From the NCBI GenBank assembly GCA_001281695.1, contig LJIE01000001.1, positions 3,867,521 through 3,931,520 on the forward strand: DNA of 64,000 nt, read 5' to 3'. The stretch's first letter is position 1; each line of letters starts with the position of its first letter. The position numbers and the translations under genes were made by a program. This DNA is from a bacterium 336/3. GTDB lineage: Bacteria > Bacteroidota > Bacteroidia > Cytophagales > Thermonemataceae. A model generated the notes under the pieces. That model worked only from the letters and a program-made list of their open reading frames with translations. It was not told the DNA's origin and did no database searches. This document shows, one piece after another, positions 6,595-39,213 of this stretch.

Positions 6595-6595
6595 C

Positions 6596-6624: not shown

Positions 6625-8264
6625 TATTTCTTTTTACGTTCAATCTCTTTGAGATTATTCATCTTTTTGAGTTGCAGAAATCCATTGATGTCATAAAGAT
6701 GCTCTTTGACTTGCTTGTTTCCAAACTCATATACTTTTTCGGCAAGTCCATCCAAGAAATCACGGTCGTGAGATACTAAAATGACTGTTCCATCAAAATC
6801 TTTCAAAGCACTTTTCAAAATATCTTTGGTTCTCATATCCAAGTGGTTGGTAGGTTCATCTAATATCAGCAAATTGACAGGCTCTAAAAGCAATTTAATC
6901 ATGGCAAGACGAGTTTTTTCACCTCCAGAAAGTACTTTTACTTTCTTATTGATGTCATCACCACTAAACATAAAAGCACCCAAAAGGTCTTTAATTTTAG
7001 TACGAATATCTCCTACTGCTATTTCATCAATCGTTTGAAAAACTGTAATGTTCTCATCTAACAAAGAAGCCTGATTTTGAGCAAAATATCCTATCATGGC
7101 ATTATGCCCCAAAGAGAGTTTTCCTTCGAAATCAATTTCACTCATAATAGCCTTGATCAGTGTAGATTTACCTTCACCATTTTTTCCTACAAAAGCTACT
7201 TTTTCCCCCCTCTTGATTGTCAGTGATGCATCAGAAAATACCACATGATCTCCATAACTTTTTGAAAGTCCTTCCACTGTCAATGGATAATTTCCAGAAC
7301 GTGGTGCAGGTGGAAATTTAAGGCGTAAAGCAGATGTATCTTCTTCATCTACCTCCAAAATTTCGAGTTTTTCAAGCATTTTTACCCTTGACTGCACCTG
7401 AAGTGTTTTAGAATATGTTCCTTTGAAACGCTCTATAAACTCTTGTACTTCTGCAATCATTTTTTGTTGCTCATCAAAAGCTTTTTGTTGCTGCTCACGT
7501 CTTTCTTTACGAAGTTCTAGGTATTTTGAGTAATTTACTTTATAATCATAAATACGCCCCATTGTGACTTCAATGGTTCGGTTGGTGATGTTATCAATAA
7601 ATGCTCTATCGTGAGATATTACAATTACAGCTTTTGCTGAGTTAATCAAAAAGTCTTCTAACCATTGAATAGACTCTATATCCATATGATTGGTAGGCTC
7701 ATCGAGGAGTATCAAGTCTGGGTCTTGAAGCAAGATTTTAGCCAATTCGATACGCATTCTCCAACCACCACTAAAATCGCTCGTAGGTCTTGAGAAATCT
7801 TCACGAACAAAGCCTAAACCTAAAAGTACTTTTTCTATTTCTGCATCATAATTTATTTGCTCAATAGTGTAGAATTTCTCACTCAAAGCAGAAACTTTTT
7901 CAATAAGTTCGTAGTAACTTTCCGAATCGTAGTCTGTACGAGTTTCAAGCTCTTTATTAAGTACTTCTATTTCTTGTTCCATGTTTTTGAGATCTGAAAA
8001 AGCCTTTGTAGCTTCTTCAAACACAGACAAGTGGTTTTCTGTCATCAGATGTTGTGGTAAATAAGCTATTACAGCATCTTTAGGGGCAGAAATTCTGCCT
8101 TTTGTAGGTGTATTGACACCTGCAATAATTTTAAGTAATGTGGATTTACCAGCCCCATTTTTACCCATGAGGGCAATTCTATCTTTAGGGTTTACAACAA
8201 ACGAAATATCTTTGAAAAGTGCTTTTCCACTAAATTCAACGGTAAGGCTATCAACCGAAATCAT
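6624..8264 (-). CDS. ABC-F family ATPase (ribosome-associated)
   Basis: Encodes 546 residues with two ABC ATPase domains and no membrane segments, the ABC-F layout. Domain 1 has Walker A GKNGAGKS (34-41), signature FSGGW and Walker B LILLDEPTNHMD. The charged linker (about 235-310) is helical, as in Uup/EttA/YdiF. Domain 2 has Walker A GKNGEGKS, signature LSGGEKT and LLILDEPTNHLD. ABC-F proteins bind the ribosomal E site to regulate translation, rescue stalled peptides or give antibiotic protection. The subgroup cannot be fixed here. Upstream, CAAAAATA (8292-8299) reads as TATTTTTG on the minus strand and could be its -7 box. Confidence 0.9.
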   Translation of the reverse strand: MISVDSLTVEFSGKALFKDISFVVNPKDRIALMGKNGAGKSTLLKIIAGVNTPTKGRISAPKDAVIAYLPQHLMTENHLSVFEEATKAFSDLKNMEQEIEVLNKELETRTDYDSESYYELIEKVSALSEKFYTIEQINYDAEIEKVLLGLGFVREDFSRPTSDFSGGWRMRIELAKILLQDPDLILLDEPTNHMDIESIQWLEDFLINSAKAVIVISHDRAFIDNITNRTIEVTMGRIYDYKVNYSKYLELRKERREQQQKAFDEQQKMIAEVQEFIERFKGTYSKTLQVQSRVKMLEKLEILEVDEEDTSALRLKFPPAPRSGNYPLTVEGLSKSYGDHVVFSDASLTIKRGEKVAFVGKNGEGKSTLIKAIMSEIDFEGKLSLGHNAMIGYFAQNQASLLDENITVFQTIDEIAVGDIRTKIKDLLGAFMFSGDDINKKVKVLSGGEKTRLAMIKLLLEPVNLLILDEPTNHLDMRTKDILKSALKDFDGTVILVSHDRDFLDGLAEKVYEFGNKQVKEHLYDINGFLQLKKMNNLKEIERKKK

Positions 8265-8315
8265 GCAAAACTATATTTTAAATTGAAGGCACAAAAATAC
8301 AAATTTTATAAATAA

Positions 8316-8346
8316 AAAGAGGCTTATTTTATAAATAAGCCTCTTT
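8316..8346 (-). terminator. Chromosomal terminator originally downstream of tRNA-Arg
   Basis: A perfect 14-bp stem (8316-8329 with 8333-8346) has a T-rich tail on the minus strand. It lies 4 nt outside the left copy of the tRNA-end repeat. It therefore probably served the tRNA-Arg gene before the island was inserted. Confidence 0.8.
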
Positions 8347-8350
8347 AATA

Positions 8351-8372
8351 TTTTGTGAACTCGTAGGGAGTC
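8351..8372. repeat. Left attachment site of the genomic island (attL)
   Basis: These 22 bp are identical and in the same orientation to 39192-39213, the 3' end of tRNA-Arg and its first trailing bases. Positions 8356-8372 correspond to the last 17 nt of the tRNA. Homology stops abruptly at 8373. This is the signature left by a tyrosine recombinase inserting at a tRNA 3' end. Confidence 0.9.
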
Positions 8373-8428
8373 AAATAACAGCCTTAAAAATACATTCAAC
8401 ACAGTTTTTTAAAAATTTAAGGCAGTTT

Positions 8429-8450
8429 TTGGGGTAGTTTTGTATAAAAT
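8429..8450. repeat. Possible integrase arm site, left end
   Basis: The reverse complement (core ACAAAACTACC) matches 39026-39048 near the right island end with one insertion and one substitution. Paired subterminal sites of this kind are where tyrosine integrases bind their arms. The tract around it (8373-8618) holds no gene that I can see. Confidence 0.4.
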
Positions 8451-8618
8451 TTATGAACAAACATCTACTATTCTTAAATCACAATTGCATGTTACAACAT
8501 CTATTTTTTACAATTTTAAGAAATTCAATCTAAAATATTACATTAGTAAAACTCTCACATAAGTTCTATAATATACTTTAAATGCTGTTTTGGTGCTTTA
8601 ATTTATTGAAATATTTTT

Positions 8619-8682
8619 TTTTATTACATGATTGCAAAATCAGGGATTCCCTGATGCGTGGAATATTTTTATTCCTTAGATT
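8619..8682 (+). repeat. Left copy of the 64-bp inverted repeat bracketing the defence cassette
   Basis: The reverse complement matches 22735-22798 over 64 bp, with a perfect 31-bp core (8631-8661). Inside the core lies a 17-nt dyad (arms ATCAGGGA and TCCCTGAT around a central T), which looks like a protein-binding operator. It is 129-192 bp upstream of hsdR. It may be a shared operator for the two converging operons, or the end of a mobile cassette. Confidence 0.85.
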
Positions 8683-8706
8683 AGCATAAAAGTTTATGAG
8701 GTTTTT

Positions 8707-8805
8707 TTGCTAAAAATAGACCTTGCAAAAAAGTTTTCAAAAGAAATAGCAGAAATGATTATAAAACTATGCTCCATAGAAAAAAATGAAATAAAGAGTT
8801 TGTAA
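8707..8805 (+). other. Possible 32-codon leader ORF before hsdR
   Basis: An open frame from TTG (8707) to TAA (8803-8805) ends 5 nt before the hsdR start. Its product would be an amphipathic, lysine-rich peptide (core KKFSKEIAEMIIKLC). A T7 run at 8702-8708 separates it from an out-of-frame ATG at 8696, so slippage could also supply a start. The other operon has a similar short ORF in the same position. Chance is a real alternative. Confidence 0.2.
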
Positions 8806-8810
8806 AAGCT

Positions 8811-11624
8811 ATGAGTACAAATAAAAATCAAAACCCTGAACAAATTGCTCGTGATAAAATAGATAATATGCTCACAGAAGCGGGCTGGATTATACAATCT
8901 AAAAATGCTATTGATTTAGGTGCAGGCAAAGGTGTTGCTATCAGAGAATATCAGGTAGGAACAAAATTTGCTGATTATGTATTATTTGTAGATAAAAAGC
9001 CCATAGGAATTATCGAGGCTAAAAAAGAAGAGGATGGATACCAGCTCACAACGGCAGAAGACCAATCTACTGAATATGCTAATGCAAAATTAAAGTACCT
9101 AAATAATGACCCCTTACCTTTCATTTTTGAAAGTACAGGCACTATTACTCGTTTTAGAGATGCCAGAGACCCCAAACCAAGAGGCAGGAACATTTTTTGG
9201 TTTTTTAAACCTGAAACCCTTGCTGATTGGTTAAAAAAAGACAAAACTTTAAGAGCAAGACTTCAGGATATTCCTGTATTGAATGAAACAGGGCTAAGAC
9301 CTGCCCAAATCAAAGCTATTAATAACCTTGAAATATCATTCAAACACGCCAGACCCAAAGCCCTTATACAAATGGCAACTGGAGCTGGAAAAACCTTTAC
9401 AGCTGCTACTTTCATTTACCGTTTGCTGGAACATGCCAAAGCCAAACGTATCTTATTTTTGGTAGATACTAAAAACTTAGGAGAACAAGCTGAACAGGAA
9501 TTTATGGCTTTCCAACCCAATGAAAGCAACAGAAAATTTACAGAGCTTTACAATGTACAAAGACTCACATCAAGTTATATTGCTTCTGATAGTCAGGTAT
9601 GTATTTCTACTATTCAAAGAATGTATGCCATTCTGAAGGGCGAAGAATTAAATGAGGGTGCAGAAGAAGACAACCCTAATGAATCTTCTTGGTTAAAAGA
9701 GCAACAAGAAAACAAACAGGCTTTGCCCATTGAATACAACCCTAATGTATCAATTGAACAATTTGATTTTATTGTGGTTGATGAATGCCATCGTTCTATT
9801 TATAACCTTTGGAAACAAGTTTTAGATTATTTTGATGCCTTCTTAATTGGCTTGACTGCCACTCCTGACAAACGTACTTTTGGTTTCTTTGAAGAAAATG
9901 TAGTGAGTGAATATACTTACGAACAATCAGTAATTGATGGCGTAAATGTACCTTACGAAGTTTATACCATTGAAACTGAAATTTCGCAGAAGGGAAGCAT
10001 AGTTAAAGCAGGCTGGTGGATAGATAAAAGAGATAAGTTCACTCGAAAAACCCGCTGGCAACAAGAAGATGAAGATACTATATATACAAAAAATGATTTG
10101 GATAAAAATGTGGTAAATCAAAGTCAGATTAGAAATATCATCAGAGAGTTTAAAAATGCTCTTCAGACAACTATTTTCCCCAACCGAAAAGACGAAAAAG
10201 GCGAATATGAAGTACCTAAAACTTTAATTTTTGCCAAAACTGATAGCCATGCAGATGATATTATCAAAATAGTCAGAGATGAGTTTAATGAAAGTGATGA
10301 GTTCTGCAAAAAAATCACTTATAAAATTCAAGAGGATCCAAAATCAGTCTTAAATCGTTTTCGTAATGCATACTATCCACGCATTGCTGTAACAGTAGAT
10401 ATGATTGCAACAGGTACAGACGTAAAACCATTGGAAGTACTGCTTTTTATGCGTGATGTAAAAAGTATCAACTATTTTGAGCAGATGAAAGGTAGAGGTA
10501 CACGTACTATCAACAAAGATAGTTTTCAGATGGTATCTAAAACGGCACAAGCTAAAACACATTTTGTCATTGTAGATGCAGTGGGTGTTACCAAATCGAA
10601 AAAAAACGATAGCAGACCTTTGGAACGAAAACCTACCGTAGCACTCAAAGACCTTCTGGGAGCTATTACGATGGGAGTAACTGATGAGGATTTATTTTTA
10701 TCCTTAGCAAACCGTTTGATTCGTTTGGAAAAAGAAATTACTGAAAAGGAAAAAGAAAAGTTATTGGAATTTTCTAAAGGTAAAAGCCTCCGACAAATCA
10801 GCAAAGAGCTGTTAGCTGCTTTTGATAAAGATGAAATAGAAGAAAAAGCTAAGGCTATCATAGAGGCAATACCTGAGCAAAACCGTACCCCTGAAAAAAT
10901 AGTAGAAGCTCAGCAACAAGCTCAAAAGGAATTGATTGATGAGGCATCTTCCACTTTTAATGGAAAATTGAATGATTATATTGATCATGTACGACAAACA
11001 CACGAACAAATCATTGATACATATAACATTGATACCGTTACCAAGTCGGAGTGGAATACTGCCTCAGTAGATAAAGCAAAAGAAATTGTAAAAGATTTTA
11101 GCGACTACTTGCTTGCCAACCAAGATGAAATAAAAGCTCTCACTATTTTTTACAAACAACCTTATAACCGAAGAAACATTACTTTTAAAATGATAAAAGA
11201 GGTCTTTGAAAAACTGAAAATGGACAAACCAACTCTTGCCCCACAATACGTTTGGGAGGCTTACAAACAATTAGAAAACGTAAAAAGCACCCAACCAACA
11301 GACGAACTCACAGCTTTGGTTTCTTTGATACGCAGGGCTTGTGGTATTGACAAGGAGTTACAAGCCTTTGACAAAACCATAGACGAAAATTTTAAAACGT
11401 GGATTTTTAAACAAAATGCAGGAAAACATAATAGATTTACACCTGAACAAATGGAATGGCTCAGAGAAATTAAAAACCACGTAGTTAATTCCTATCACAT
11501 AGAAATAGATGACCTTGACTATACACCTTTTGATGAGAAAGGAGGAAAAGGTAAAATGTACCAGCTTTTTGGCAAAGAAATGAATGAAATTATTGATGAA
11601 CTTAACGGAATATTAGTAGCTTAA
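8811..11624 (+). CDS. hsdR: Type I restriction enzyme R subunit (HsdR)
   Basis: Encodes 937 residues. An N-terminal PD-(D/E)XK nuclease domain carries DYVLFVDKKPIGIIEAKK (the ...D...E-A-K catalytic pattern, about residues 50-70). The SF2 translocase domains carry Walker A ATGAGKT (about 188-194), the Walker B box VVDECHRS (about 321-328), motif III LTATP and motif VI MKGRGTR. The C-terminal domain resembles that of the EcoEI/EcoKI group. With HsdM and HsdS it forms a complex that translocates and cuts unmethylated DNA. It heads an operon with hsdS, a DUF262 gene and hsdM, and all family motifs are intact. The inverted repeat and a short leader ORF lie upstream. Confidence 0.95.
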   Translation: MSTNKNQNPEQIARDKIDNMLTEAGWIIQSKNAIDLGAGKGVAIREYQVGTKFADYVLFVDKKPIGIIEAKKEEDGYQLTTAEDQSTEYANAKLKYLNNDPLPFIFESTGTITRFRDARDPKPRGRNIFWFFKPETLADWLKKDKTLRARLQDIPVLNETGLRPAQIKAINNLEISFKHARPKALIQMATGAGKTFTAATFIYRLLEHAKAKRILFLVDTKNLGEQAEQEFMAFQPNESNRKFTELYNVQRLTSSYIASDSQVCISTIQRMYAILKGEELNEGAEEDNPNESSWLKEQQENKQALPIEYNPNVSIEQFDFIVVDECHRSIYNLWKQVLDYFDAFLIGLTATPDKRTFGFFEENVVSEYTYEQSVIDGVNVPYEVYTIETEISQKGSIVKAGWWIDKRDKFTRKTRWQQEDEDTIYTKNDLDKNVVNQSQIRNIIREFKNALQTTIFPNRKDEKGEYEVPKTLIFAKTDSHADDIIKIVRDEFNESDEFCKKITYKIQEDPKSVLNRFRNAYYPRIAVTVDMIATGTDVKPLEVLLFMRDVKSINYFEQMKGRGTRTINKDSFQMVSKTAQAKTHFVIVDAVGVTKSKKNDSRPLERKPTVALKDLLGAITMGVTDEDLFLSLANRLIRLEKEITEKEKEKLLEFSKGKSLRQISKELLAAFDKDEIEEKAKAIIEAIPEQNRTPEKIVEAQQQAQKELIDEASSTFNGKLNDYIDHVRQTHEQIIDTYNIDTVTKSEWNTASVDKAKEIVKDFSDYLLANQDEIKALTIFYKQPYNRRNITFKMIKEVFEKLKMDKPTLAPQYVWEAYKQLENVKSTQPTDELTALVSLIRRACGIDKELQAFDKTIDENFKTWIFKQNAGKHNRFTPEQMEWLREIKNHVVNSYHIEIDDLDYTPFDEKGGKGKMYQLFGKEMNEIIDELNGILVA

Positions 11625-11628
11625 CAAA

Positions 11629-13182
11629 ATGACAAACAACGATAAAAATGATTGGGCAGAGTGTACTCTAAATGAATTAATTTCACAAGATGGTATTTTT
11701 TGTGATGGTGATTGGGTTGAAAGTAAAGACCAAGACAAATACGGAAATATTCGTTTAATACAATTAGCTGATATTGGAGATGGGATATTTAAAGACAAAT
11801 CAAATCGATTTTTAACTTATGAGAAAAGTATAGAATTAAATTGTACGTATTTAAAAAATGGAGATATTCTTCTTGCAAGAATGCCTGAGCCGCTAGGTAG
11901 AGCTGCAATCTTCCCTTTTAGAGAAGATGAGAAATATGTAACTGTTGTTGATGTAGCAATAATTAGGACAGCAAATCAATACATTTCTAATAAATTTTTA
12001 CTTTTTATTATTAATAGTCCTTTTATACGTAAAGAGATTGCAAGTTTACAAAGTGGTTCTACAAGAAAAAGGATTTCAAAGAATAATTTATCTAAAATAT
12101 TATTCCCTCTTGCCCCACTCCCAATTCAACGAGCCATAGTAGCTAAAATAGAGGCATTATTTTCGGATTTGGATAAGGGCATAGAGAGCCTCAAAACTGC
12201 CCAAGCCCAACTCAAAATCTACCGCCAAGCTGTGTTAAAAAAAGCTTTTGAGGGAGAACTCACCAAAGAATGGAGAGAGAAACAAACAAACTTGCCTACT
12301 GCTGAAGAACTTTTACAACAAATAAAAGAAGAACGAAATAAATGGTTAGATATTGAAATTTTAAATAGTAATAGTGAAGCTAAAAGGATAAAGGCAAAAC
12401 TTAAAAAATTAGATATAAAAATTTCAAATACTGATTTGCCTCAAAACTGGTGTTGGTCTACTTTTATTAACTCTTGTTTATTTGTGATTGATTGCCATAA
12501 TAAAACCGCTCCTTATGAAAGCGAAGGCATATTTTTAGTACGTACAACAAACATTCGAGAAGGTAAATTAGATTTAGTAAATGAAATAAAATTTGTATCT
12601 GAAAAAACATATAAATACTGGTCAAAAAGAGCCGTTCCGCAATCTGGCGATATTATTTTTACTAGGGAAGCACCAATGGGCAAAGCTGCAATTATTCCAC
12701 AACAAACTAAAATATGCTTGGGGCAAAGAACTATGTTGCTGAGAACTATTCAACAATTTCTCAATAATAAATATTTGTTCTATAATATTTTGAGTGAGAT
12801 ATTTCAACAAAGAATGTATAAAGATGCAATAGGAACAAGTGTAAAACATTTAAGAGTAGGAGATGTAGAAAATCTAATATTTCCTTTATGTTCACCCCAA
12901 GAACAAACCCAAATCGTCCAAGAAATAGAAAGACGTTTATCCGTCTGTGACAAAATAGAACAAAGCATTACCGAAAGCCTCGAAAAATCAGAGGCATTAC
13001 GCCAAAGCATCTTAAAAAAAGCATTTGAAGGCAAGCTATTAAGCCAAGCAGAAATAGAACAATGTAAAAAAGAAGCAGATTATGAACCTGCATCAGTACT
13101 ATTAGAAAAGATAAAAGCCGAAAAATTGGCAAAAGAACAAGAAAATAAGAAGTCTAGTATCAAATCAAAAAAAGACAAGTAA
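11629..13182 (+). CDS. hsdS: Type I restriction specificity subunit (HsdS)
   Basis: Encodes 517 residues with the standard two-half layout. Target recognition domain 1 (about 8-165) is followed by a conserved helix (LPIQRAIVAKIEALFSDLDKG). Domain 2 (about 265-420) is followed by the second conserved helix (SPQEQTQIVQEIERRL). The two domains read the two halves of a bipartite DNA site. It starts 4 nt after hsdR, so translation is likely coupled. The C-terminus has an extra lysine-rich tail. The recognition sequence cannot be predicted from the sequence alone. Confidence 0.95.
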   Translation: MTNNDKNDWAECTLNELISQDGIFCDGDWVESKDQDKYGNIRLIQLADIGDGIFKDKSNRFLTYEKSIELNCTYLKNGDILLARMPEPLGRAAIFPFREDEKYVTVVDVAIIRTANQYISNKFLLFIINSPFIRKEIASLQSGSTRKRISKNNLSKILFPLAPLPIQRAIVAKIEALFSDLDKGIESLKTAQAQLKIYRQAVLKKAFEGELTKEWREKQTNLPTAEELLQQIKEERNKWLDIEILNSNSEAKRIKAKLKKLDIKISNTDLPQNWCWSTFINSCLFVIDCHNKTAPYESEGIFLVRTTNIREGKLDLVNEIKFVSEKTYKYWSKRAVPQSGDIIFTREAPMGKAAIIPQQTKICLGQRTMLLRTIQQFLNNKYLFYNILSEIFQQRMYKDAIGTSVKHLRVGDVENLIFPLCSPQEQTQIVQEIERRLSVCDKIEQSITESLEKSEALRQSILKKAFEGKLLSQAEIEQCKKEADYEPASVLLEKIKAEKLAKEQENKKSSIKSKKDK

Positions 13183-13190
13183 AATAAATT

Positions 13191-15038
13191 ATGGAAATAG
13201 CACCAGATAAACAAAATATAGATAGAGTATTTTCTAATATAACCTATCACATAGACTTCTATCAACGTGATTACAAATGGACAACAGAGCCAGTATTGCG
13301 ACTCTTAGATGATATTTTTTTTATGTTCAACCAAGAATATGAAAAGTCTAGTTCATTAGAGCCAAGTATCGAAACTATCATGGCTAAGTATTCATGGTAT
13401 TATCTCAATACCTATGTTACAAACAATATTGATGGTAAAGTATATATAGTAGATGGTCAGCAACGCTTGACAACTCTTACTATCATACTTATTAAGTTAT
13501 ATAATAAAGCAAAGGAATTAGCCTGTGAGAGTGATTTTATTGAATGGATAAATAGTAAAATTGCTGGGTTTAGTGGAGGGAAAAGATCTTACTGGATAAA
13601 CCATGAAAAATCACTAAATGTATTAAAAGATTTATTTGAGAATAAAAAGGAACATAAAGAAATAGATACATCAGCATCTATTACATCAGTAAATCTTTTA
13701 GCTAACTATTCAACCGTTTCAAAGTATATTGATGAGCAACTAGGAAATAAACATCGTTTTGAAACATTTGCATACTTCTTTTTATACAGACTTGTACTCA
13801 TTAATTTGTCTGTTGAAAAAACACAAGTACCTATGGTTTTTGAAGTGATTAATGATAGAGGGATTCGCCTAAAACCTTATGAAATTCTCAAAGGAAAACT
13901 ACTTGGACAAATTGACAAATTAGAGCTGGACAAGTTTAATTACAATCATTTATGGGAAAGTAAGGTGAAAACGATAAATGACTTCAAGGAGGACGAAATA
14001 GATACATTTTTTAGATATTACTTAAAATCAAAATACTCTAATACTCGTAAAGATGGGACATCATTTGATGGTGATTATCACAGGGAAATGTTTACCAACA
14101 GTATGGATAATACACTTCACCTAAAGCACAATCCTACTATGGTGAAGAATTTCTTGGATACCACTTTTACCTATTATACCACACTTTATATTAAAATACT
14201 TGATGCTTCTAAAAAACAAGATAAGCAATATCCTTCCGTATTTTTGAACAAATTAAATGAAATGGATGGACAGTTTTTACTCATCTTGTCTGCTTGTAAA
14301 CTAAACGACCCAGAAGAAGACGCAAAGATTGAAAAAGTTGCTTATGAAATTGATAGATTATTTTCTCTATTGCAACTTCAAAATTCCTATGATAGTAATT
14401 CCTTTTATGAACTCCTCTACAAAATATCATCTGAAATTAGAGATGGAAATGTAGATAAGATACGTAGTGTATTTGATAAATACTTGTTTGAGGAGTTAAA
14501 GAAAAAGAGAAATTCTGAAATAATAGAAGGACTACAATATACTTTTTTCAAGAACATAGGCATTAATCTAAATATGCGATTCAAGAGATATTTTTTTGCA
14601 AGGGTAGAGCAATTCTTAAGTGAAAATCTAAATCTTGGAATGAAGCACCCTTTAGATGATTTAGTATTGAGAACAGGTTCAAAAAAAGGCTTTCATATAG
14701 AACATATACTTTCTTATAATGAAGAAAACAAAACATTATTTGATAATGATGAAGTATTTGAACAAGAAAGAAATCGTTTAGGAGGAATTTTATTACTCAA
14801 AGGGCGTGATAATATATCTAGCAATAATGAACCTTATTCAAAAAAGTTAAAAACTTACGCCAATACTCTTTACTGGAATGAAACTTTACGTGAAGATACT
14901 TACAAATCAAAATTAGATATGAATGATCTAAAAAAGAAATTTAATCTTGACTTAAAGCCAATTAGTAAATTTGGGAAAGATGAGTTAGAAATGAGACAAA
15001 AATTATTATTTAATATCGCAAAATATATCTGGAAATAA
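13191..15038 (+). CDS. DUF262/DUF1524 (GmrSD-like) protein inside the hsd operon
   Basis: Encodes 615 residues. The N-terminal DUF262 domain shows IDFYQRDYKW (21-30) and VDGQQRLTTL (87-96), the ParB-like NTP-binding/hydrolysing signature. The C-terminal DUF1524 domain has a His-Me/HNH-like motif HIEHIL (about 502-507) and the downstream NRLGGILLL segment. GmrSD and relatives are nucleases that often target modified phage DNA (type IV restriction). It sits 8 nt after hsdS and 1 nt before hsdM, so it is part of the operon rather than a neighbour. It could be a partner nuclease covering phages with modified DNA, or a regulator of the complex. Confidence 0.85.
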   Translation: MEIAPDKQNIDRVFSNITYHIDFYQRDYKWTTEPVLRLLDDIFFMFNQEYEKSSSLEPSIETIMAKYSWYYLNTYVTNNIDGKVYIVDGQQRLTTLTIILIKLYNKAKELACESDFIEWINSKIAGFSGGKRSYWINHEKSLNVLKDLFENKKEHKEIDTSASITSVNLLANYSTVSKYIDEQLGNKHRFETFAYFFLYRLVLINLSVEKTQVPMVFEVINDRGIRLKPYEILKGKLLGQIDKLELDKFNYNHLWESKVKTINDFKEDEIDTFFRYYLKSKYSNTRKDGTSFDGDYHREMFTNSMDNTLHLKHNPTMVKNFLDTTFTYYTTLYIKILDASKKQDKQYPSVFLNKLNEMDGQFLLILSACKLNDPEEDAKIEKVAYEIDRLFSLLQLQNSYDSNSFYELLYKISSEIRDGNVDKIRSVFDKYLFEELKKKRNSEIIEGLQYTFFKNIGINLNMRFKRYFFARVEQFLSENLNLGMKHPLDDLVLRTGSKKGFHIEHILSYNEENKTLFDNDEVFEQERNRLGGILLLKGRDNISSNNEPYSKKLKTYANTLYWNETLREDTYKSKLDMNDLKKKFNLDLKPISKFGKDELEMRQKLLFNIAKYIWK

Positions 15039-15039
15039 C

Positions 15040-16557
15040 ATGACCGAATCAATTATTATATCCAAAGTATGGAATTTTGCCAATGTCCTCAGAGATGATG
15101 GTGTGGGCTATGGTGATTATTTAGAACAAATTACCTATTTGCTATTCTTAAAAATGGCAGATGAATTCAATCAGCCCCCATACGACAAAGGACTAAAATT
15201 TCCCAAACTCAAAGATGAACAAGGCAAAGAGTTACCAAACGCAGAAACCTGCGACTGGCAAACCCTTTCACAAAAAAGAGGTTTAGAGTTAGAAACCTTT
15301 TATAACCAAATGCTCCGCAGTTTAGGCAATGAAAAAGGTATTTTAGGTCAGATTTTCACCAAAAGTCAAAATAAAATTCAAGACCCTGCCAAACTCTTAA
15401 AAATCATTGATATGATTGATAAAGAGCAATGGAATTTGATGGGTGCAGATATTAAAGGAGGAATATATGAAGGACTTTTGGAAAAAAATGCTGAAGATAC
15501 CAAAAGTGGTGCAGGGCAATATTTTACACCTCGTGCCTTAATCAAAGCTATTGTGGCTTGTGTTCGTCCCAAACCTATGCGAACTATCATAGATCCTTCT
15601 TGTGGTACGGGTGGTTTCTTTTTAGCAGCCTACGATTTTTTAAAGAAACAGGGATTAGACAGAGATGAAAAAGAGTTTTTGAAAAATAAAACCTTTTATG
15701 GCAATGAAATTGTAGCCAATACTCGTCGTTTGTGTTTGATGAATATGTTTTTACATAATATAGGCGAAATAGATGGAGAAAGCCTTATTTCTTCCGCTGA
15801 TGCTCTGATTGCTGATAATGGCACCCGTTATGATTATGTACTGGCAAATCCACCATTTGGTAAAAAAAGCAGTATGACCATTACCAATGAGGAAGGCAAT
15901 CAGGAAAAGCAAGACTATATTGTCAATCGTCAGGACTTTGTCGCTACTACTGCCAACAAACAGCTCAACTTTTTGCAACATATCAAAACACTTCTAAAAG
16001 TTACAGGTCAGGCAGCTGTAGTATTGCCAGATAACATACTTTTTGAGGGAGGTGCAGGTGAAACAGTACGAAAAGAACTATTGAGAACTACTGAATTACA
16101 TACAATTTTGAGGCTTCCGACAGGTATTTTCTATGCACAGGGTGTAAAAGCGAATGTATTGTTTTTTGATAATCAGCCAGCTTCCAAAGACCCTTGGACA
16201 AAGGAAGTATGGATATATGACTATCGTACTAACATCAGCCATACTTTGAAGAAAAATCCTTTAACTTTTAACGATTTAGAAGATTTTATTCAGTGCTATA
16301 ATCCTGAAAATCGTAATAAAAGAGTAGAAACTTGGAGTGAAGCCAATCCTGAAGGCAGATGGCGTAAATTTACTTATTCAGAGATTATAGAAAGGGATAA
16401 AACCAATCTGGATATTTTTTGGATAAAAGATAAAAGCCTTACTGATTTAGACAATTTGCCAGATCCTGATGTATTGGCAAATGAAATCATTGAAAACCTA
16501 GAGGCTGGCTTAAATAGTTTTAAAGAAATAATGGAAACTATCAATGGAGATGAATAA
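15040..16557 (+). CDS. hsdM: Type I N6-adenine DNA methyltransferase subunit (HsdM)
   Basis: Encodes 505 residues. The HsdM N-terminal helical domain (VWNFANVLRDDGVGYGDYLE) is followed by the methylase fold with motif I DPSCGTGGFF (about 185-194) and motif IV NPPFG (about 270). These bind S-adenosylmethionine and flip the adenine. With HsdS it protects host DNA by N6-adenine methylation. The order R-S-DUF262-M is unusual because hsdM is last. A bidirectional terminator follows. Confidence 0.95.
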   Translation: MTESIIISKVWNFANVLRDDGVGYGDYLEQITYLLFLKMADEFNQPPYDKGLKFPKLKDEQGKELPNAETCDWQTLSQKRGLELETFYNQMLRSLGNEKGILGQIFTKSQNKIQDPAKLLKIIDMIDKEQWNLMGADIKGGIYEGLLEKNAEDTKSGAGQYFTPRALIKAIVACVRPKPMRTIIDPSCGTGGFFLAAYDFLKKQGLDRDEKEFLKNKTFYGNEIVANTRRLCLMNMFLHNIGEIDGESLISSADALIADNGTRYDYVLANPPFGKKSSMTITNEEGNQEKQDYIVNRQDFVATTANKQLNFLQHIKTLLKVTGQAAVVLPDNILFEGGAGETVRKELLRTTELHTILRLPTGIFYAQGVKANVLFFDNQPASKDPWTKEVWIYDYRTNISHTLKKNPLTFNDLEDFIQCYNPENRNKRVETWSEANPEGRWRKFTYSEIIERDKTNLDIFWIKDKSLTDLDNLPDPDVLANEIIENLEAGLNSFKEIMETINGDE

Positions 16558-16623: not shown

Positions 16624-18723
16624 ATATTGATTTATCAAATCTTGAAAATCTTGATCTTTGTGATATAATTTAAAATCTTCATTATTTTCTACAAATTCAG
16701 TAGATACTTCATTTTTTGCTAAAGAAGTATTCAAATATTTCAAGGACTGCATTTTATCCCCTTTTATTGCATAAACCCTTGATATATTATAATAATTTCC
16801 TCCATATTCAACAGCCTGTAAGAATACATTGATAGCCTGTTCATATAATGCCTCTGCTTCTGTACCTACTTTAGTTTGTGCTAAATCAACCAAAGTTACT
16901 CCTAAAAAATCAAGAATTAAGTGATTATTAGGTTTTATATTAATTGTTTTTTGATACTTCTCAATAGCTTGTAGATATAACTCTTCTGCCTCTTTTCCTT
17001 GTTTTAACTTAGCTAAATTAGTTAATATAAATCCCCAATAAAGAAGAGCTTCATAATAGTCTGATTTGATATTAATTGCTTGTTGATACTTCTCAATAGC
17101 TTGTAGATATAACTCTTCTGCTTGTTTTATTTGAGCTAAATTAGTTAGTATAAATCCCCAGCCAAAAAAAGCTTCATGTTTATCTGGTTTGATATTGATA
17201 ACTTGTTCAAACTTCTCAATAGCTTGGTAGTATAACTCCTCTCCCTCTTGTTCTCTTTTTGTTTCAGCCAAACTGATTAACATAAATCCCCAGCCAAAAA
17301 AGGCTTCATGTTTATCTGGTTTAATATTAGTTGTTTTTTGATACTTCTCAATAGCTTGTAGATATAACTCTTCTGCCTCTTTTCCTGTTTTTAATCTAGC
17401 CAAAAAGCTTAGAGAATGCCCCCAGTTATAAAAAGCTTCATATTTATCAGGTTTGATATTGATAGCCTGTTTATATTTCTCAATAGCTTGTAGATATAAC
17501 TCTTCTGCCTCTTTTCCTTGTTTTATTTGAGCTAAATCTATTAAAGTAGCCCCCAAGTCATTAAAAATCTCATAAAAGTCAGGTTTGATATTGATAGCTT
17601 TTTCAAACTTCTCAATAGCTTGTAGATATAACTCTTCTGCCTCTTTTCCTGTTTTTAATTTAGCTAAAAAGCTTAAAGAACTGCCCCAATTATGAAAAGC
17701 TTGATATTGATTAGGTTTGATATTAATTGCTTGCTGATATTTCTCAACAGCTTGCTGATATAACTCTTCTGCCTGTTTGCCCTCTTTGAGTTCAGTTAAA
17801 CGAAATAATGTATCTCCTAAATTAATAAAAACCTCATAGAAGTCTGGTTTGATATTGATAACTTGTTGATACTTCTCAATAGCTTTTAGATATAATTCTT
17901 CTGCTTGTTTTACATCTTTTGTTTTTGCTAAACTTACTAAGGTACTTCCATAATTATTTAATGCCTCATAATAATCAGATTTAATACTGATCACTTTATC
18001 AAACCTATCAATTGCTTGTTGGTATAGTTCTTCCTTTTCTTTTCCCTCTTTGAGTTCAGCTAAGTACCCTAATATAACTCCCCAGTTATAAAAAGCTTCA
18101 TGAGAGTCTGACTTGATATTAGTTGTTTGTTCAAACTTCTTTATTGCATGTAGATATAGTTCTTCCTTCTCTTTATCATCTCTAAGTTGAGCTAGATGAT
18201 TTAATATAATTCCCCAGTTATAAAAGGCTTCATGAGAGTCTGATTTGATATTGATTGTTTGTTCAAACTTCTCTATCGCCTTTAAATATACGTCTTCTCT
18301 TATTTTCCTTGAGGTTATTTTACCTAAATGAATCAAGGCACCTCCCCAATTATGAAAAGCTTCATGAAAATCAGGGTTTATACTGATGGCTTGTTGGAAT
18401 TTCCTAATAGCTTGTCGATATAACTTCCTAGCTTGTTTTATATCTTCTGTTCGAGCTAAGTTTGCTAAATTAGTTCCCCAGTTATAAAGAGCCTGATAAA
18501 GGTCTGGTTTTAGTTCTAAAGCTGTTTTATATCTTTTATTTGCAGATGATAGTTTATTTAAAAGAGTAAGCAATGCACCTCTAGAAAAATACTTAAGAGC
18601 TTCTCTTTCTAAAAGTTTATCTTTATCAGAAGTATTACCAAGTTTTTCTATTTTCTTATGAGCCTCTTCTAATTGTTTCTTTAACTCAGTTACTTCACTG
18701 GATTCTTTATTCAGATTTTTTTT
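16615..18723 (-). CDS. Tetratricopeptide repeat protein, probably the C-terminal part of a SIR2-TPR fusion
   Basis: About 700 codons are open. Thirteen TPR units of about 47 residues (pattern LYLQAIEKYQQAINIKPD...EAFYNWG) fill most of the chain. They are preceded by about 35 residues of coiled coil (ELKKQLEEAHKKIEKL). The first usable start is TTG at 18573, but clear coding sequence continues about 50 codons further, up to an A10 run (18716-18725) at the end of the SIR2 gene. This frame is -1 relative to SIR2, and a stop (18724-18726) closes it just before the run. No ATG or GTG occurs in that extension. TPR domains usually sense or scaffold, and here they probably act as the sensor half of the SIR2 effector. 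A frameshift mutation is the alternative. Confidence 0.8.
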   Translation of the reverse strand, partial: KKNLNKESSEVTELKKQLEEAHKKIEKLGNTSDKDKLLEREALKYFSRGALLTLLNKLSSANKRYKTALELKPDLYQALYNWGTNLANLARTEDIKQARKLYRQAIRKFQQAISINPDFHEAFHNWGGALIHLGKITSRKIREDVYLKAIEKFEQTINIKSDSHEAFYNWGIILNHLAQLRDDKEKEELYLHAIKKFEQTTNIKSDSHEAFYNWGVILGYLAELKEGKEKEELYQQAIDRFDKVISIKSDYYEALNNYGSTLVSLAKTKDVKQAEELYLKAIEKYQQVINIKPDFYEVFINLGDTLFRLTELKEGKQAEELYQQAVEKYQQAINIKPNQYQAFHNWGSSLSFLAKLKTGKEAEELYLQAIEKFEKAINIKPDFYEIFNDLGATLIDLAQIKQGKEAEELYLQAIEKYKQAINIKPDKYEAFYNWGHSLSFLARLKTGKEAEELYLQAIEKYQKTTNIKPDKHEAFFGWGFMLISLAETKREQEGEELYYQAIEKFEQVINIKPDKHEAFFGWGFILTNLAQIKQAEELYLQAIEKYQQAINIKSDYYEALLYWGFILTNLAKLKQGKEAEELYLQAIEKYQKTINIKPNNHLILDFLGVTLVDLAQTKVGTEAEALYEQAINVFLQAVEYGGNYYNISRVYAIKGDKMQSLKYLNTSLAKNEVSTEFVENNEDFKLYHKDQDFQDLINQYKK
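16950..18420 (-). repeat. Tandem near-identical TPR-coding DNA repeats
   Basis: Blocks of about 140-147 bp recur with long identical stretches (for example the coding of EKYQQAINIKPD and EELYLQAIEK). This is recent amplification within the gene, so unit number may vary between strains by recombination. Confidence 0.75.
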
Positions 18724-19535
18724 TTAATTGATAACAATTCATCAATAATCGAATTAATTTCATCAAAGTTTGAGATATTGATTGGTGTAAGAAAATCAAG
18801 AGTGCTATCCAAAGTCTTATTTGTGATTATAAAGTGTTTTTGGTTGTACTCTCTTTGAAGCCTCTTTACTTCCTTAAAAATATTGTTTATTTGGAAATCT
18901 CCCATTCCTACCCCAATAAAGAGAATTGTTTTATTGATAATGATATTCTTTAATACCAATAGTGAATGTTCTGCATCTCTATCCTGATTTTCATAAAGGT
19001 TTTTATAATTTGATGGAAATAAGACCATAGAATCAGCATCCTCGAAACAACCATGCAGTTTAAAAAGTAATGGAGCATCTTTATCTTTATGCTTTGTTAA
19101 CTCATAGTTTCTTCCTTTATAAGCTTTACTCCTTCTAAGTTCTGGAACAGCTTCTTCAAATGCAGTATCATAGTTAGTAGTTATAATCTTTTTTGATAAC
19201 TCAAACAACTTTTTGTGCAAGTCATAGTCGTTTTTATCACTTAGAATTAAAAATTTTTTAATAAAATTATAAATATCTTTTTTAGACAATTCAGAGTCTG
19301 ATTCTATTAAGTCTAAAACTTTAATAGGATCATACCTTTTGATTAGAGGCATTAGGTCATTTACTTCATGTCCTTTGCTTTGTAAGTCATTCAGAATATT
19401 AACTACTAAGTTACTCCAACCTTCCAATTTTTGATTATCCACATTTTTGAAATTAAAAGATAATCCAGCACCAACAAATACGATTAAATCATTATCGTTT
19501 ATTGCTTTTATTAGATCCGTAGGTATTTTATTCAT
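18711..19535 (-). CDS. SIR2-like (NADase-type) effector protein
   Basis: Encodes 274 residues forming a complete SIR2-family domain. It has GAGLS (22-26) for NAD binding, TTNYD (119-123) with catalytic N121, KLHG with H161, and a late GVGMGD nucleotide motif. SIR2 domains in defence proteins (ThsA, DSR2, Sir2-pAgo) deplete NAD to stop phage growth. A strong AGGAGG (19541-19546 in reverse) sits 5 nt before the ATG, unusual for this lineage. The last codons run through an A10 tract and stop. The next frame continues as the TPR protein, so the effector is probably made both alone and as a fusion of about 975 residues. Confidence 0.88.
   Translation of the reverse strand: MNKIPTDLIKAINDNDLIVFVGAGLSFNFKNVDNQKLEGWSNLVVNILNDLQSKGHEVNDLMPLIKRYDPIKVLDLIESDSELSKKDIYNFIKKFLILSDKNDYDLHKKLFELSKKIITTNYDTAFEEAVPELRRSKAYKGRNYELTKHKDKDAPLLFKLHGCFEDADSMVLFPSNYKNLYENQDRDAEHSLLVLKNIIINKTILFIGVGMGDFQINNIFKEVKRLQREYNQKHFIITNKTLDSTLDFLTPINISNFDEINSIIDELLSIKKKI
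18716..18725 (-). promoter_or_regulatory. A10 slippage tract at the SIR2/TPR junction
   Basis: Ten consecutive A's (minus strand) span the last lysine codons of the SIR2 gene. The downstream coiled-coil/TPR frame is open from this run on, in the -1 frame. Runs of this length are known to cause transcriptional slippage and -1 ribosomal frameshifting, and are also mutation hot spots. Confidence 0.55.
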
Positions 19536-19550
19536 TTTAACCTCCTTTTA

Positions 19551-20192
19551 TTAGAATATAGTATTCTTTATTATTATTTTATGACTTTCATCAAAACCTC
19601 GTAATATTTCTAGAGTATTATCTTTATCCTTATTTTTTGAAAGATAAAGACAATCAAAAGCATTCTTGCTTGGACTACCTGCATTTCCAAAATAATGTAT
19701 ATGAGTTTTTTTATAAGCAGATGTAACTGATTTTGCATAAATATGCTCAAAGAATAAAAGTGTATCATCTGTACTCTCATCTACTACACAAGCACAATCT
19801 TCTAGTCTTCCTCCTTCAATCAAATCTTTACTCTTCCAATCCTTTCTTGTATAAAGAAATAAATCTTCAAGCAATGTGATTCTAAACCAGGAGTGTTTCA
19901 GTGTGTGTTCGTCTTTATCCTTATTTTCATTCTCTTCTATAATGAAAAAATACAGATGTTCTCCTGCCGATTTCAACTTCTTTATACTTGTTACATTTGG
20001 ATCATCTTTTATTTTATCATAAATTTCTCTTTCAGAACGAATATTTTCAGGTTTATCAAATTTAGCTGGCTTAACATCCTCTTCTCTCTCAAAAATGAGT
20101 ATATAGTTTATATTTTCTTCTACTATAACTCGTTCTTTCGTTTCGGAGTCATAAATATGCCCATGTTGAAATGTAATATTGATTGAACGCAT
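19551..20192 (-). CDS. Unknown protein of the SIR2 operon
   Basis: Encodes 213 residues, soluble, with no signal peptide or membrane segment, rich in charged residues (several KDKD stretches). I do not recognise the family. The first 40 residues look like beta strands (INITFQHGHIYDSETKERVIV). The C-terminal half has IHYFGNAGSPSKNAF and hydrophobic strands. It lies 15 nt upstream of the SIR2 gene and 21 nt downstream of the small nuclease-like gene, so it is clearly in one operon with them. Partner or trigger-sensing roles are possible, but nothing in the sequence proves one. Confidence 0.7.
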   Translation of the reverse strand: MRSINITFQHGHIYDSETKERVIVEENINYILIFEREEDVKPAKFDKPENIRSEREIYDKIKDDPNVTSIKKLKSAGEHLYFFIIEENENKDKDEHTLKHSWFRITLLEDLFLYTRKDWKSKDLIEGGRLEDCACVVDESTDDTLLFFEHIYAKSVTSAYKKTHIHYFGNAGSPSKNAFDCLYLSKNKDKDNTLEILRGFDESHKIIIKNTIF

Positions 20193-20213
20193 ACCCAGTT
20201 ATTTTTTAATATT

Positions 20214-20741
20214 TTACTTAATTACCTTTAAATCAAAATAGAAAACTCCATCTTCATCAGAATAAGCTGCAAACATATATCGCTCTTCAGGATAAGAAGG
20301 GAAATTGTCTATGATAGTTTTTAGTTCACTTATTGTGTTTTTTAAGGAGTCATTATCTTTTGCTTGAAAAATCATAAGTTTATATTGAGCCTTGGCTACA
20401 AGAAGTTTCTCAAAATCATTTTGTATTTCTTGAGGGTTATAATCCCATTCACACTCAACAGCTAGATGTATTCTTTTCAAATGCCTAAAATCACCCCCTC
20501 CTGAATAAATATATAATGTAACATCAAATAACCATTCTATCCAATCTTTATTCTCAACACTTGAAGCAGCTAAACATATATCACTTCCTGCATTTACTTC
20601 ATTTTTCAACTCACATAAAGCTGTTTTAATAGTAGAAGTCCAACCAGTTCTAGAGCTATCTCCTGCATTGTATAAATCAACAATACAAGTATCTAGAACT
20701 TCTTGTATTCTAATCTCAAATCTATCAAAAACAGGTTCCAT
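20214..20741 (-). CDS. Small protein with possible PD-(D/E)XK-like fold
   Basis: Encodes 175 residues. The core WLFDVTLY (D73) followed by HLAVECEWD (E96, E98) and then NDFEKLLVAKAQYKLMIF has the strand-strand-helix order of restriction-endonuclease-like folds. An E-x-E replaces E-x-K, so it may be a degenerate or unusual nuclease. This is a pattern judgement without a search. It lies between the GHKL ATPase and the 213-residue protein in the leftward operon. Confidence 0.6.
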   Translation of the reverse strand: MEPVFDRFEIRIQEVLDTCIVDLYNAGDSSRTGWTSTIKTALCELKNEVNAGSDICLAASSVENKDWIEWLFDVTLYIYSGGGDFRHLKRIHLAVECEWDYNPQEIQNDFEKLLVAKAQYKLMIFQAKDNDSLKNTISELKTIIDNFPSYPEERYMFAAYSDEDGVFYFDLKVIK

Positions 20742-20872
20742 TTTTATGTGATTTTAATAATGTAATATAGTTTTTTAGGTTTTACACTTGGACAGTCAAT
20801 CTAAATAGAAACATAAAATTCTAAGTTTGAAAGTTATCCTCCTAATAAAAAACTTGTATTAGCCACAGTTTC

Positions 20873-34609: not shown

Positions 34610-35923
34610 ATGTCTATGAAAAAATTAAATATATCCTACTCACGTCATAAAAACGGCTTTTTGTACTGTCAAATCTATTTTGATAGTACAAAAGCCAATT
34701 TTAGTACAGGCATCAAGGTAAATGACAAAGAGTGGTTGAATGGAAAGCCAAAAGGCAAGAACTCAGTACAAGTTCAAAAGAAACTAGGAGGCATCAAAGC
34801 TGACTTACAAAAATGCTTTGATTATCTGAAGATGAAAAATGAACATGAACAAACCATTTTTACACCTCAAGAACTTAAAGACTTTTATCTAAAAAAGCAC
34901 ATAAACAATGCTATAAAGCATCAAAAATCTGTACTTGACATTCTATCAGAACTTACTGAATCGAAGCTCTCAGAAGGCATCATAAAGCCTCAGAGTAAAA
35001 CAAGGAGTCAGACTAAGATAAACAATATCAAAAGGTATTTTGAAAGCATATATAATCTACGAATCAGTTTTGATGAAATTGATTATTCATTCTTAGAGAA
35101 AATGATAAAATTCTTGCGTGAGGAGAATTTTACTACAAAAAAAATTCAATCACCCAAGAAAAATACCTACCTCAAAAAATACATTCAGTTTCTTACAGAA
35201 GGTAATGAATATGCTTTGCAAAAAGGCTATTGTAGTAAGATGATTCCTAAGTATAGGAAATTCAAGAGCGATGCCTCCGAAACGCATTACTTGATGATGA
35301 ATGAATTAAAAGACCTCATTAATTTGGATTTATCCAAACACAATGATAGCGAGCTTTCAAAAGTTCGTGATTTATTCGTTTTTATGGCTTATACAGGTTT
35401 TTTATGGTCTGACTGCCTAGCCTTCAAGCCAAAGGAGCATATTATAACCTCTAATGATGGAACAAAGGTTTTTGCTAAACCACGAGTAAAAACAGGTTCT
35501 TATCAACACATTCCAGTATTTCTTGAAGCCAAAAGCATTTTGGAAAGATACGACTATCAACTGCCCCTAGGGACTGAGCAGATTTATAATAGGAAAATAA
35601 AGATTCTTTGTGAAATGGTTGGTGTTCCCAATGCTAAGACTGTAACCATGCGTTCTGGACGAAGAACTGCTGGCATGATTTGGCTTTATTCAGGCATTCG
35701 CCTTGAGGTGGTAAGTAAAATGTTAGGACATAAGAACATTTCTACGACTCAAAGACATTATGCGAAAATTTTGAATGAAAGTGTTTTGGCAGAAACTGCT
35801 CATCTGATAAATATTCCACAGGAAACGCCCCAAGTCCCGAATATAGAACCCAATGAAATGCTTGCTTTAATGAAAGAGCAAACTCTTTTATTGAAAAAAA
35901 TAGCTCAAAATCAAAACCAATAA
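34610..35923 (+). CDS. int: Tyrosine recombinase (integrase) of the island
   Basis: Encodes 437 residues with the Bacteroidota integrase layout: arm-binding domain (1-100), SAM-like core-binding domain (100-205) and catalytic domain (215-405). Catalytic residues seen are R351 (within MRSGRRT), H374 (LGHKN) and nucleophile Y384 (RHYAKI). The usual first arginine is missing in TGFLWSDC, as in CTnDOT-type integrases. The first His of HxxR is replaced by R348. It probably drives insertion at the tRNA-Arg end. It lies 3.3 kb from the right attachment site. Confidence 0.92.
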   Translation: MSMKKLNISYSRHKNGFLYCQIYFDSTKANFSTGIKVNDKEWLNGKPKGKNSVQVQKKLGGIKADLQKCFDYLKMKNEHEQTIFTPQELKDFYLKKHINNAIKHQKSVLDILSELTESKLSEGIIKPQSKTRSQTKINNIKRYFESIYNLRISFDEIDYSFLEKMIKFLREENFTTKKIQSPKKNTYLKKYIQFLTEGNEYALQKGYCSKMIPKYRKFKSDASETHYLMMNELKDLINLDLSKHNDSELSKVRDLFVFMAYTGFLWSDCLAFKPKEHIITSNDGTKVFAKPRVKTGSYQHIPVFLEAKSILERYDYQLPLGTEQIYNRKIKILCEMVGVPNAKTVTMRSGRRTAGMIWLYSGIRLEVVSKMLGHKNISTTQRHYAKILNESVLAETAHLINIPQETPQVPNIEPNEMLALMKEQTLLLKKIAQNQNQ

Positions 35924-39162: not shown

Positions 39163-39195
39163 AAAAGTGCCTCTATTGAACGTAGAGGCACTTTT
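39163..39195 (-). terminator. Island-borne terminator of tRNA-Arg
   Basis: A perfect 13-bp stem (39163-39175 with 39183-39195, core AGTGCCTCTA) with a 7-nt loop and a T run on the minus strand lies immediately after the tRNA. It is inside the island and differs in sequence from the chromosomal terminator at 8316-8346. Confidence 0.85.
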
Positions 39196-39213
39196 GTGAA
39201 CTCGTAGGGAGTC
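39192..39213. repeat. Right attachment site of the genomic island (attR)
   Basis: These 22 bp are identical to 8351-8372 and overlap the last 17 nt of tRNA-Arg. The island (about 30.8 kb) lies between the two copies. The intact tRNA gene is on this side. Confidence 0.9.

Follow-up and report, generated by a model that had tools for sequence, protein, structure and literature searches.

A single-chain GmrSD-family gene in the hsdS-hsdM junction of strain 336/3: a candidate nuclease for modified DNA in an apparently exchangeable slot of a type I operon

Introduction

What is a gene of the GmrSD family doing between the specificity and the methyltransferase genes of a type I restriction-modification operon? 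The question is raised by a locus of bacterium 336/3 (Bacteroidota, Cytophagales, Thermonemataceae), which we analysed in a stretch of 64,000 nucleotides (contig LJIE01000001.1, positions 3,867,521 to 3,931,520), hereafter called the window. A first-pass annotation had described there an R-S-DUF262-M operon and had suggested that, type I systems normally leaving modified phage DNA uncut while GmrSD-like enzymes attack it, the linkage of the two would close this escape route. The idea seems plausible and is already in print, complementary roles of type I and GmrSD systems having been proposed with the description of TgvAB (PMC11411939).

Embedded GmrSD-type genes in type I loci are likewise known. 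Type I domains are reported to be enriched near GmrSD genes, with RloF as a noted case (PMC4619093), the hsd loci of Campylobacter jejuni contain the rlo and mlo genes (PMC5183652), and two C. jejuni strains are described with unlike DUF262 proteins at one locus (PMC8713573). The survey presented here extends the rlo/mlo observation. In a literature search covering titles, abstract openings and passages, we found no description of the Bacteroidota slot or of the single-chain S|M form.

Results

The hsd operon and its embedded gene

The open reading frames of the announced operon lie exactly where the first-pass annotation had placed them, all on the + strand and in the order hsdR-hsdS-X-hsdM (8811-16557), X being the name given here to the embedded gene and to its product. 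The intergenic gaps are of 4, 8 and 1 nt, the last two as had been reported for the flanks of X.

8811..11624, + strand: hsdR, type I restriction/translocase subunit, 937 aa (Pfam: ResIII 137.9 bits, EcoEI_R_C 131.5, HSDR_N 31.3)
11629..13182, + strand: hsdS, specificity subunit, 517 aa (Pfam: Methylase_S 78.5 bits, two stretches)
13183..15039, + strand: S|M junction slot, holding different genes in related operons
13191..15038, + strand: X, single-chain GmrSD-family protein, DUF262 + helical linker + DUF1524, 615 aa, ATG start
15040..16557, + strand: hsdM, N6-adenine methyltransferase subunit, 505 aa (Pfam: N6_Mtase 237.1 bits, HsdM_N 59.4)

The three type I subunits are thus all encoded in one operon according to Pfam, and restriction and methylation activities are predicted for it. 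This hsdM is the only HsdM_N match in the host genome (4.7 Mb), and X is one of three matches to PF03235. A single transcript probably serves X and the Hsd subunits; a promoter scan gave no excess over shuffled sequence (29 found, shuffled mean 37.2). A chance packing of open reading frames is excluded, since X is conserved over its full length in distant organisms and GmrSD-family genes recur in the same junction.

Domains, motifs and fold of X

The GmrSD-like identity attributed to the embedded gene is borne out by both Pfam domains, the N-terminal GmrSD_N/DUF262 at 86.7 bits (cut-off 33.2) and the C-terminal GmrSD_C/DUF1524 at 36.2 bits (cut-off 23), and by intact motifs: YQR at 24-26, DGQQR at 88-92, NDRG at 221-224, E504-H505-I506 and N541. 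The two marks of the family, the DGQQR nucleotide motif and the histidine of the His-Me/HNH site, are therefore both present. When X is aligned with 28 relatives, DGQQR (D88-R92), Q25 and R26 are invariant in all 29 rows, Asp22, E504, H505 and N541 are each kept in 28, and position 24 is Tyr in 23 rows and Phe in 6. PADLOC matched X over most of its length to Orf5 (87 bits) and, with a slightly lower score, to HEC-06 (80 bits, E 3.6e-23; residues 5-561 of X on model positions 9-532 of 569).

The AlphaFold2 model of X (mean pLDDT 89.4, pTM 0.81) is closest to DndI (9jfl: Z 21.4, 527 aligned, rmsd 9.0) and to SspE (7drs: Z 19.3, rmsd 21.9), followed by BrxU (7p9k: Z 10.1, 413 aligned, rmsd 20.0, 13% identity); the rows scoring below BrxU were mostly helical-repeat look-alikes and were not used, and the high rmsd values may come from differing domain angles. 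The Foldseek list for the model includes DndI and SspE; BrxU is absent from it. A profile search of the PDB gave DndI 9jfl as the best match (E 9.8e-26), then an 818-aa DUF262 protein (20yv, E 5.8e-20), SspE (2.3e-14) and BrxU (0.0017), and did better than a single-sequence phmmer search, which returned weak SspE matches only.

A reader of self marks?

These resemblances raise the main rival to a nuclease that attacks modified DNA. In analogy with DndI and SspE, X would read a mark of the host itself, either HsdM adenine methylation or an in-trans phosphorothioate, which would spare self DNA or switch X on, and unmarked foreign DNA would be nicked. Besides the profile and fold matches, two residues of the hydrophobic sensing patch of DndI/SspE, described as P-x-Y-Q (residues as given in PMC11662687), speak in its favour, Y24 and Q25 being present in X. 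The patch is incomplete, however: its proline (P23 in DndI) is replaced by Asp22 in X and is Asp in 28 of the 29 rows, and the Tyr gives way to Phe in the 6 rows mentioned above.

The host genome can be read on both sides. Contig C3 encodes SspA-, SspB-, SspC- and SspD-like proteins (PADLOC E 4e-166, 1e-118, 0 and 1e-93), so that a phosphorothioate mark could be at hand; our earlier supposition that the host is devoid of a phosphorothioate system was dropped when this SspABCD-like locus was found beside another DUF262 gene. The locus (L251, G000:C3:17000-35000) also contains a PbeA-like helicase, a protein matching PD-T4-6/Stk2 models and a short DUF262 protein. X stands in the hsd operon and not beside dnd or ssp genes, the C3 locus being non-adjacent. 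Against the rival, the Ssp-like locus has a PbeA-like protein of its own, and the IPxYQR form is found in a further DUF262 protein of the host (L250:8998-10869). DndC was not found in the host genome; the same model matched 5 of 14 control genomes, none over cut-off. The SspD model matched at E 1e-3 or better in 7 of the 12 X-carrying genomes, Methanolobus among them, but strongly in the host only (1.6e-55), the matches in 6 of the other 11 being weaker (1.7e-15 at best, in Methanolobus); as 7 of the 14 control genomes are also matched, such weak matches carry little information. Furthermore, relatives of X accompany unrelated types of HsdM and often lie in runs free of hsd genes, as detailed below. 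On balance we consider the reading of a self mark unlikely.

Relatives of X inside and outside type I operons

Relatives were collected by a pattern scan of GTDB species genomes (best 80 of 250 loci), by scans at E 1e-20 or better, which found 5 of 390 genomes of the order and 10 of 395 of the phylum (the host counted each time), and from four plasmid records. With the window, and after short duplicate loci had been dropped, the set comprises 108 rows: 90 full-length proteins (82 of single-chain type and 8 of TgvB type), 8 of TgvA type and 10 fragments. The R, S and M context labels were assigned with purpose-built iterated profiles. Three loci removed by an overlap filter stand outside all counts. 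In two of them, L058 and L074, X has R, S and M genes beside it, and in the third, L081, an R gene; the hsd-context count is for this reason if anything low.

In this set, which derives in part from the best 80 of 250 loci, both M and S accompany 23 of the 90 full-length rows (21 of single-chain type) in a same-strand run. The run is free of hsd genes for 40 rows and contains some hsd gene but not both M and S for 3, and a further 24 rows reach the end of the contig or locus. The 23 occupy six junction types: S|R in 10 cases, after S as the last hsd gene of the run in 5, M|S in 4, S|M in 2 (the window and Methanolobus), before R in 1 and R|M in 1, the last being of TgvB type.

Relatives similar over the whole length of X occur in distant organisms, among them a Methanolobus MAG (66% identity) and Pelagicoccus (60%). 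The group of the window X (starred branch, 95) unites the S-X-M arrangement of Methanolobus, a ResIII-type cluster (L104), R-M-S-X in Pelagicoccus and M-S-X-R in Desulfuromusa and Nitrosomonas. In the last three organisms X is 58-60% identical to that of the window whereas the HsdM is so at only 26%, 31% and 28%, respectively, in local alignments, which indicates that X travels without its HsdM. A neighbouring group holds a Mucilaginibacter plasmid copy (56.5%) and L012. The 21.8 kb inspected around the plasmid copy are free of annotated hsd genes, and a cytosine methyltransferase and a PLD-type restriction endonuclease are annotated on the other strand a few kb off. In L012 the relative shares a cluster with a DrmD/HmaA-like helicase and an Eco57I-type methylase.

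The tree of X has 96 rows, namely the 90 full-length proteins and six slot proteins found via HsdM; rows shorter than 540 aa and those of TgvA type were left out. On it the hsd label needs 21 changes, at least 15 of them on starred branches, from which we deduce that relatives of X have repeatedly entered or left type I operons. The label is weakly clustered (shuffled mean 25.2 changes; 18 of 500 shuffles as low). The 24 rows reaching a contig or locus end were scored as non-hsd; with these rows omitted, 20 changes remain necessary. The 8 rows of TgvB type stand apart in a starred clade. This tree and the HsdM tree presented below are both quick ones, in which the positions of L202, L211, L216 and L224 are unsure because of long branches.

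These relatives are found alone, in clusters of other defence genes and in unrelated type I operons, which argues that X is probably a self-contained cassette and not an Hsd subunit. A search for a phage origin by tblastn gave no match in 50,697 phage records. The possibility that X replaces HsdR in Methanolobus was rejected: the C-terminus of R lies upstream at the end of the same contig of this metagenome bin, with one co-oriented gene and three open reading frames of the opposite strand between it and hsdS, and the remainder lies on another contig.

The same observations bear on the view of X as a guard of the type I system. PrrC, the guard of EcoPrrI, is a published precedent for an effector gene embedded in a type I locus (PMC12707154), and the gaps of 8 and 1 nt are in keeping with such a bond; HsdRMS would hold X off until a phage antirestriction protein releases it. 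A specific HsdRMS interface is nevertheless improbable with close relatives lying apart from hsd genes, on the plasmid stretch and elsewhere, as well as in unrelated hsd operons, and the HsdM and X trees disagree. We therefore regard a guarding role as very unlikely.

The S|M junction as a variable slot

The question can be turned round by asking what else occupies the junction. A search with the window HsdM through the 395 and 390 genomes scanned above, with a limit of E 1e-100, gave 70 distinct places including the window, many of them near-copies from one genus with empty slots. Slot genes were counted as same-strand candidate open reading frames of at least 140 aa, and S and M were called adjacent when the gap was below 60 nt. 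The order is S..M in 55 places and M-S in 5, with 10 left unassigned. One or more open reading frames are inserted in 34 of the 55 S..M junctions, S and M are adjacent in 17, and 4 have a gap with no qualifying frame.

GmrSD-family genes occupy 7 of the 55 slots (the window, L202, L211, L216, L217, L224 and L225), and the insertion, which the first-pass annotation had wished to see surveyed across hsd operons, is thus not unique to strain 336/3. Pfam recognises both domains in L211, L217 and L225 and the N-terminal one only in L202 and L216. In L224 (5477-7609), GmrSD_N is fused to a C-terminal Schlafen AlbA_2 domain, with no GmrSD_C match. The six other proteins are at most about 28% identical to the window X over long stretches, and the sole close pair among the seven is L217 and L225 (49%).

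The other occupants are varied. A McrB-type AAA and McrC pair is found in L227, and Septu PtuA/PtuB in L228 and L231 (PADLOC) and L226 (blastp cluster); in L231 (2807-5338) the PtuA and PtuB models both match a single 843-aa chain. Schlafen-like AlbA_2 proteins occur in L177 and L229 (Pfam) and in five more slots by cluster, Fic genes in L198 (Pfam) and three more by cluster, a RhuM-Fic gene in L200, YhcG in L197, UDG in L210 (Pfam) and L225 (cluster), and a NO VEIN C-terminal domain in L220. IS200-like or REP-associated-transposase-like genes are present in L174, L235, L172, L194 and L196, the last three below the NCBIfam cut-off. Several slot genes match no Pfam family, and those of L218, L237 (8327-9997) and L195 had no match in the libraries tried. 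Beside its GmrSD and UDG-family genes, the slot of L225 contains a gene (5819-9052) for a 1077-aa TIR-EVE-KAP NTPase protein, possibly a modified-base reader domain joined to a TIR effector.

At the R|S junction, cargo is present in 25 of 45 assigned places, and none of it is of the GmrSD family. A gene pair recurs there, its first member encoding a PDC-M41A-like protein of about 295 aa and its second a DUF5131-type protein of about 243 aa, in L178 (library match) and in L180, L185, L194, L224 and L227 (blastp cluster).

From these gene contents, the hsdS|hsdM junction in this HsdM family looks like a variable, exchangeable slot. Could X then be a mere passenger, the slot being a tolerated and easily recombining landing place in which X gains expression and mobility with no functional link to type I restriction? 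The great variety of the contents, transposase-like genes included, the 17 empty slots and the replacement of cargo between operons with 98-99% identical HsdM would all fit. On the other side, much of the identified cargo belongs to defence-type families, and GmrSD-family genes recur in slots from separate branches of the HsdM family. We hold a passenger status to be quite unlikely.

Exchange of cargo between related operons

The replacement of cargo is best followed in L224 and L225, of which the HsdM proteins are 98.4% identical and the slot contents do not align. At the DNA level, the shared part of hsdR aligns (91%) up to 13 nt short of the gene end, hsdS aligns in two stretches, the last of which stops 6 nt before the gene end, and hsdM aligns (92.5%) from 3 nt before its start, while the R|S contents, the S|M contents and the remainder of hsdS do not align. 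Both slots hold a GmrSD-family gene, the proteins sharing 31% identity over 83 residues only. Similarly, L202 (a GmrSD_N gene and a PD-(D/E)XK gene) and L203 (a Fic gene) have HsdM proteins 99.0% identical, and L216 (a GmrSD_N gene) and L218 (a gene of no known family) 91%. The sister operon of the window, L172, has an 89% identical HsdM and an HsdS that is 81% identical over residues 415-505 (91 residues near the C-terminus), with a 226-aa REP-transposase-like gene in place of X.

In the HsdM tree (68 rows; L207, L210 and L211, below 380 aa, left out), seven rows bear the GmrSD label, which has to change 6 times, starred branches imposing every one of these changes. The X proteins of the window and of Methanolobus are sisters (support 90), but the HsdM of Methanolobus stands outside the window's clade; it groups with 14 rows from Bacteroidota, of which 13 have an empty slot and one is of unassigned order, away from the window (starred, 99). 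This placement suggests that X probably entered the slot separately or was swapped later. A co-inheritance of R-S-X-M in the host and Methanolobus, to which their identities (R 63%, X 66%, M 70%) and common gene order had pointed, was rejected on the basis of this tree.

The pattern is that expected of an exchangeable slot, and the mechanism of exchange can be pictured as follows. Homologous recombination at the conserved ends of hsdR, hsdS and hsdM would exchange whole defence modules (GmrSD, McrBC, Septu, TIR-EVE, Schlafen-like or Fic) along with HsdS recognition domains, the junctions of R-S-M operons acting as exchangeable cargo slots, so that one type of event would alter both the site specificity and the backup effector, even between phyla and between domains of life. 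We put forward this general scheme, including the list of swappable modules, tentatively, giving it slightly less than an even chance of being right.

A putative tRNA-Arg island

The operon lies on a putative tRNA-Arg island with the following parts.

8351..8372, + strand: putative attachment repeat of 22 nt that reproduces the 3' end of tRNA-Arg, at the left edge of the putative island (script search; 18 nt lie inside the tRNA)
34610..35923, + strand: phage-type tyrosine integrase of the putative island (Phage_integrase 25.1 bits, below the cut-off of 27.1; Phage_int_SAM_5 24.4, above the cut-off of 22.3)
39192..39213, + strand: the other 22-nt repeat copy, lying at the tRNA-Arg 3' end (script search)
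39196-39270, - strand: tRNA-Arg

The 22-nt direct repeats and the integrase suggest a tRNA-Arg island of about 31 kb, with the hsd operon at its far end, one repeat copy lying about 440 nt upstream of hsdR, and a SIR2-like gene aboard. An empty tRNA-Arg site was sought in 7 genomes of the same genus or family, in which the marker protein had no match at E 1e-150; weaker relatives of the integrase are present in 4 of these 7 (best 38% identity). On the opposite strand, at 18711-22561, lie genes for a SIR2-like (SIR2_2, ThsA-like) protein, two proteins matching no Pfam family (19551-20192 and 20214-20741) and an ATPase of HSP90/MutL type (20873-22561), which the BbrUII model matches at a score far under its cut-off. 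This cluster is a possible defence system.

Discussion

The explanation we favour, and consider reasonably probable, is that X is a self-contained nuclease of the GmrSD family, carried as exchangeable S|M cargo on the putative tRNA-Arg island and restricting modified foreign DNA in parallel with the type I system. The N-terminal DUF262 domain would bind an NTP and probe the state of the DNA, and the C-terminal His-Me/HNH domain would cut. The target would be foreign DNA that HsdR leaves uncut and of which the bases are modified, probably hypermodified. X and the type I enzyme would then act side by side, each covering the blind side of the other and with no physical complex between them. X would presumably tolerate type I adenine methylation, since its relatives coexist with many HsdM/HsdS types.

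The modification-dependent reading draws on the family membership of X, on its independence from any one hsd system and on the parallel with TgvAB. Several observations speak against it, among them the SspABCD-like locus of the host and the methyltransferase and endonuclease genes annotated near the Mucilaginibacter copy. The closest relatives by fold and profile, DndI and SspE, act on DNA devoid of the host phosphorothioate, which is the opposite logic, and the match to BrxU is weaker than theirs (Z 10.1 against 21.4 and 19.3; profile E 0.0017). Furthermore, the embedding is by itself no proof of complementation, nor does residence in the slot predict modification-dependent restriction, given the hsd-free relatives of X and the Fic, Schlafen-like, Septu and transposase-like genes found in the same slot. 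Thus, of the complementary restriction first suggested for this locus, family membership, type I embedding, recurrence and the TgvAB parallel lend support to the general idea, and the notion of a linked pair is made less certain by relatives that often stand alone and by a slot that holds other genes.

The pairing of type I and GmrSD-type functions is then not a curiosity of Vibrio or Campylobacter, and in one operon family a fixed junction acts as a variable slot for defence cargo. The hsd junctions would be a practical hunting ground for antiphage genes still to be discovered. Do embedded effectors complement type I restriction, or do they guard it? The hsd slots offer a testable system for this question.

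How does X compare with the known systems? DndI (9jfl) and SspE (7drs, 6jiv) share with it the two-domain fold, the YQ pair and the DGQQR motif, but they sense phosphorothioate, and their patch proline is an Asp in X. BrxU (7p9k) is a type IV enzyme with the GmrSD-family fold and, like X, the companion of another system, in its case BREX, although its structural match to X is weaker (Z 10.1, rmsd 20.0, 13% identity). HEC-06 resembles X as a single protein of DUF262+DUF1524 type embedded in another defence system, the Hma clusters (PADLOC, PMC11411939), and the helicase next to the relative in L012 is itself DrmD/HmaA-like; in the case of X the host system is of type I, and the match to Orf5 is slightly better. 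HEC-06 and BrxU are both reported to work independently (PMC11411939).

The hsd loci of C. jejuni follow an R-[rlo]-S-[mlo]-M plan similar to that of the window, with open reading frames at both junctions and with RloF as a DUF262 protein (PMC5183652, PMC4619093); RloF lies in the R|S junction, however, whereas X lies in the S|M (mlo) junction and in another phylum. The best-studied parallel is TgvAB of the Vibrio cholerae island VPI-2, a two-protein GmrSD system inside a type I operon that restricts hypermodified Tevenvirinae and of which the five-gene arrangement gave 79 hits among 41,142 genomes (PMC11411939). As in the window, GmrSD-family genes with DUF262 and DUF1524 domains lie within the type I operon; TgvAB differs in requiring TgvA (DUF262) as well as TgvB, while the operon of X has one DUF262 gene and no TgvA-like partner. 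TgvAB alone is reported to protect against Tevenvirinae, 10- to 100-fold less than the whole cluster for several phages, which its authors ascribe to expression, and the protection is kept in an HsdR active-site mutant (PMC11411939).
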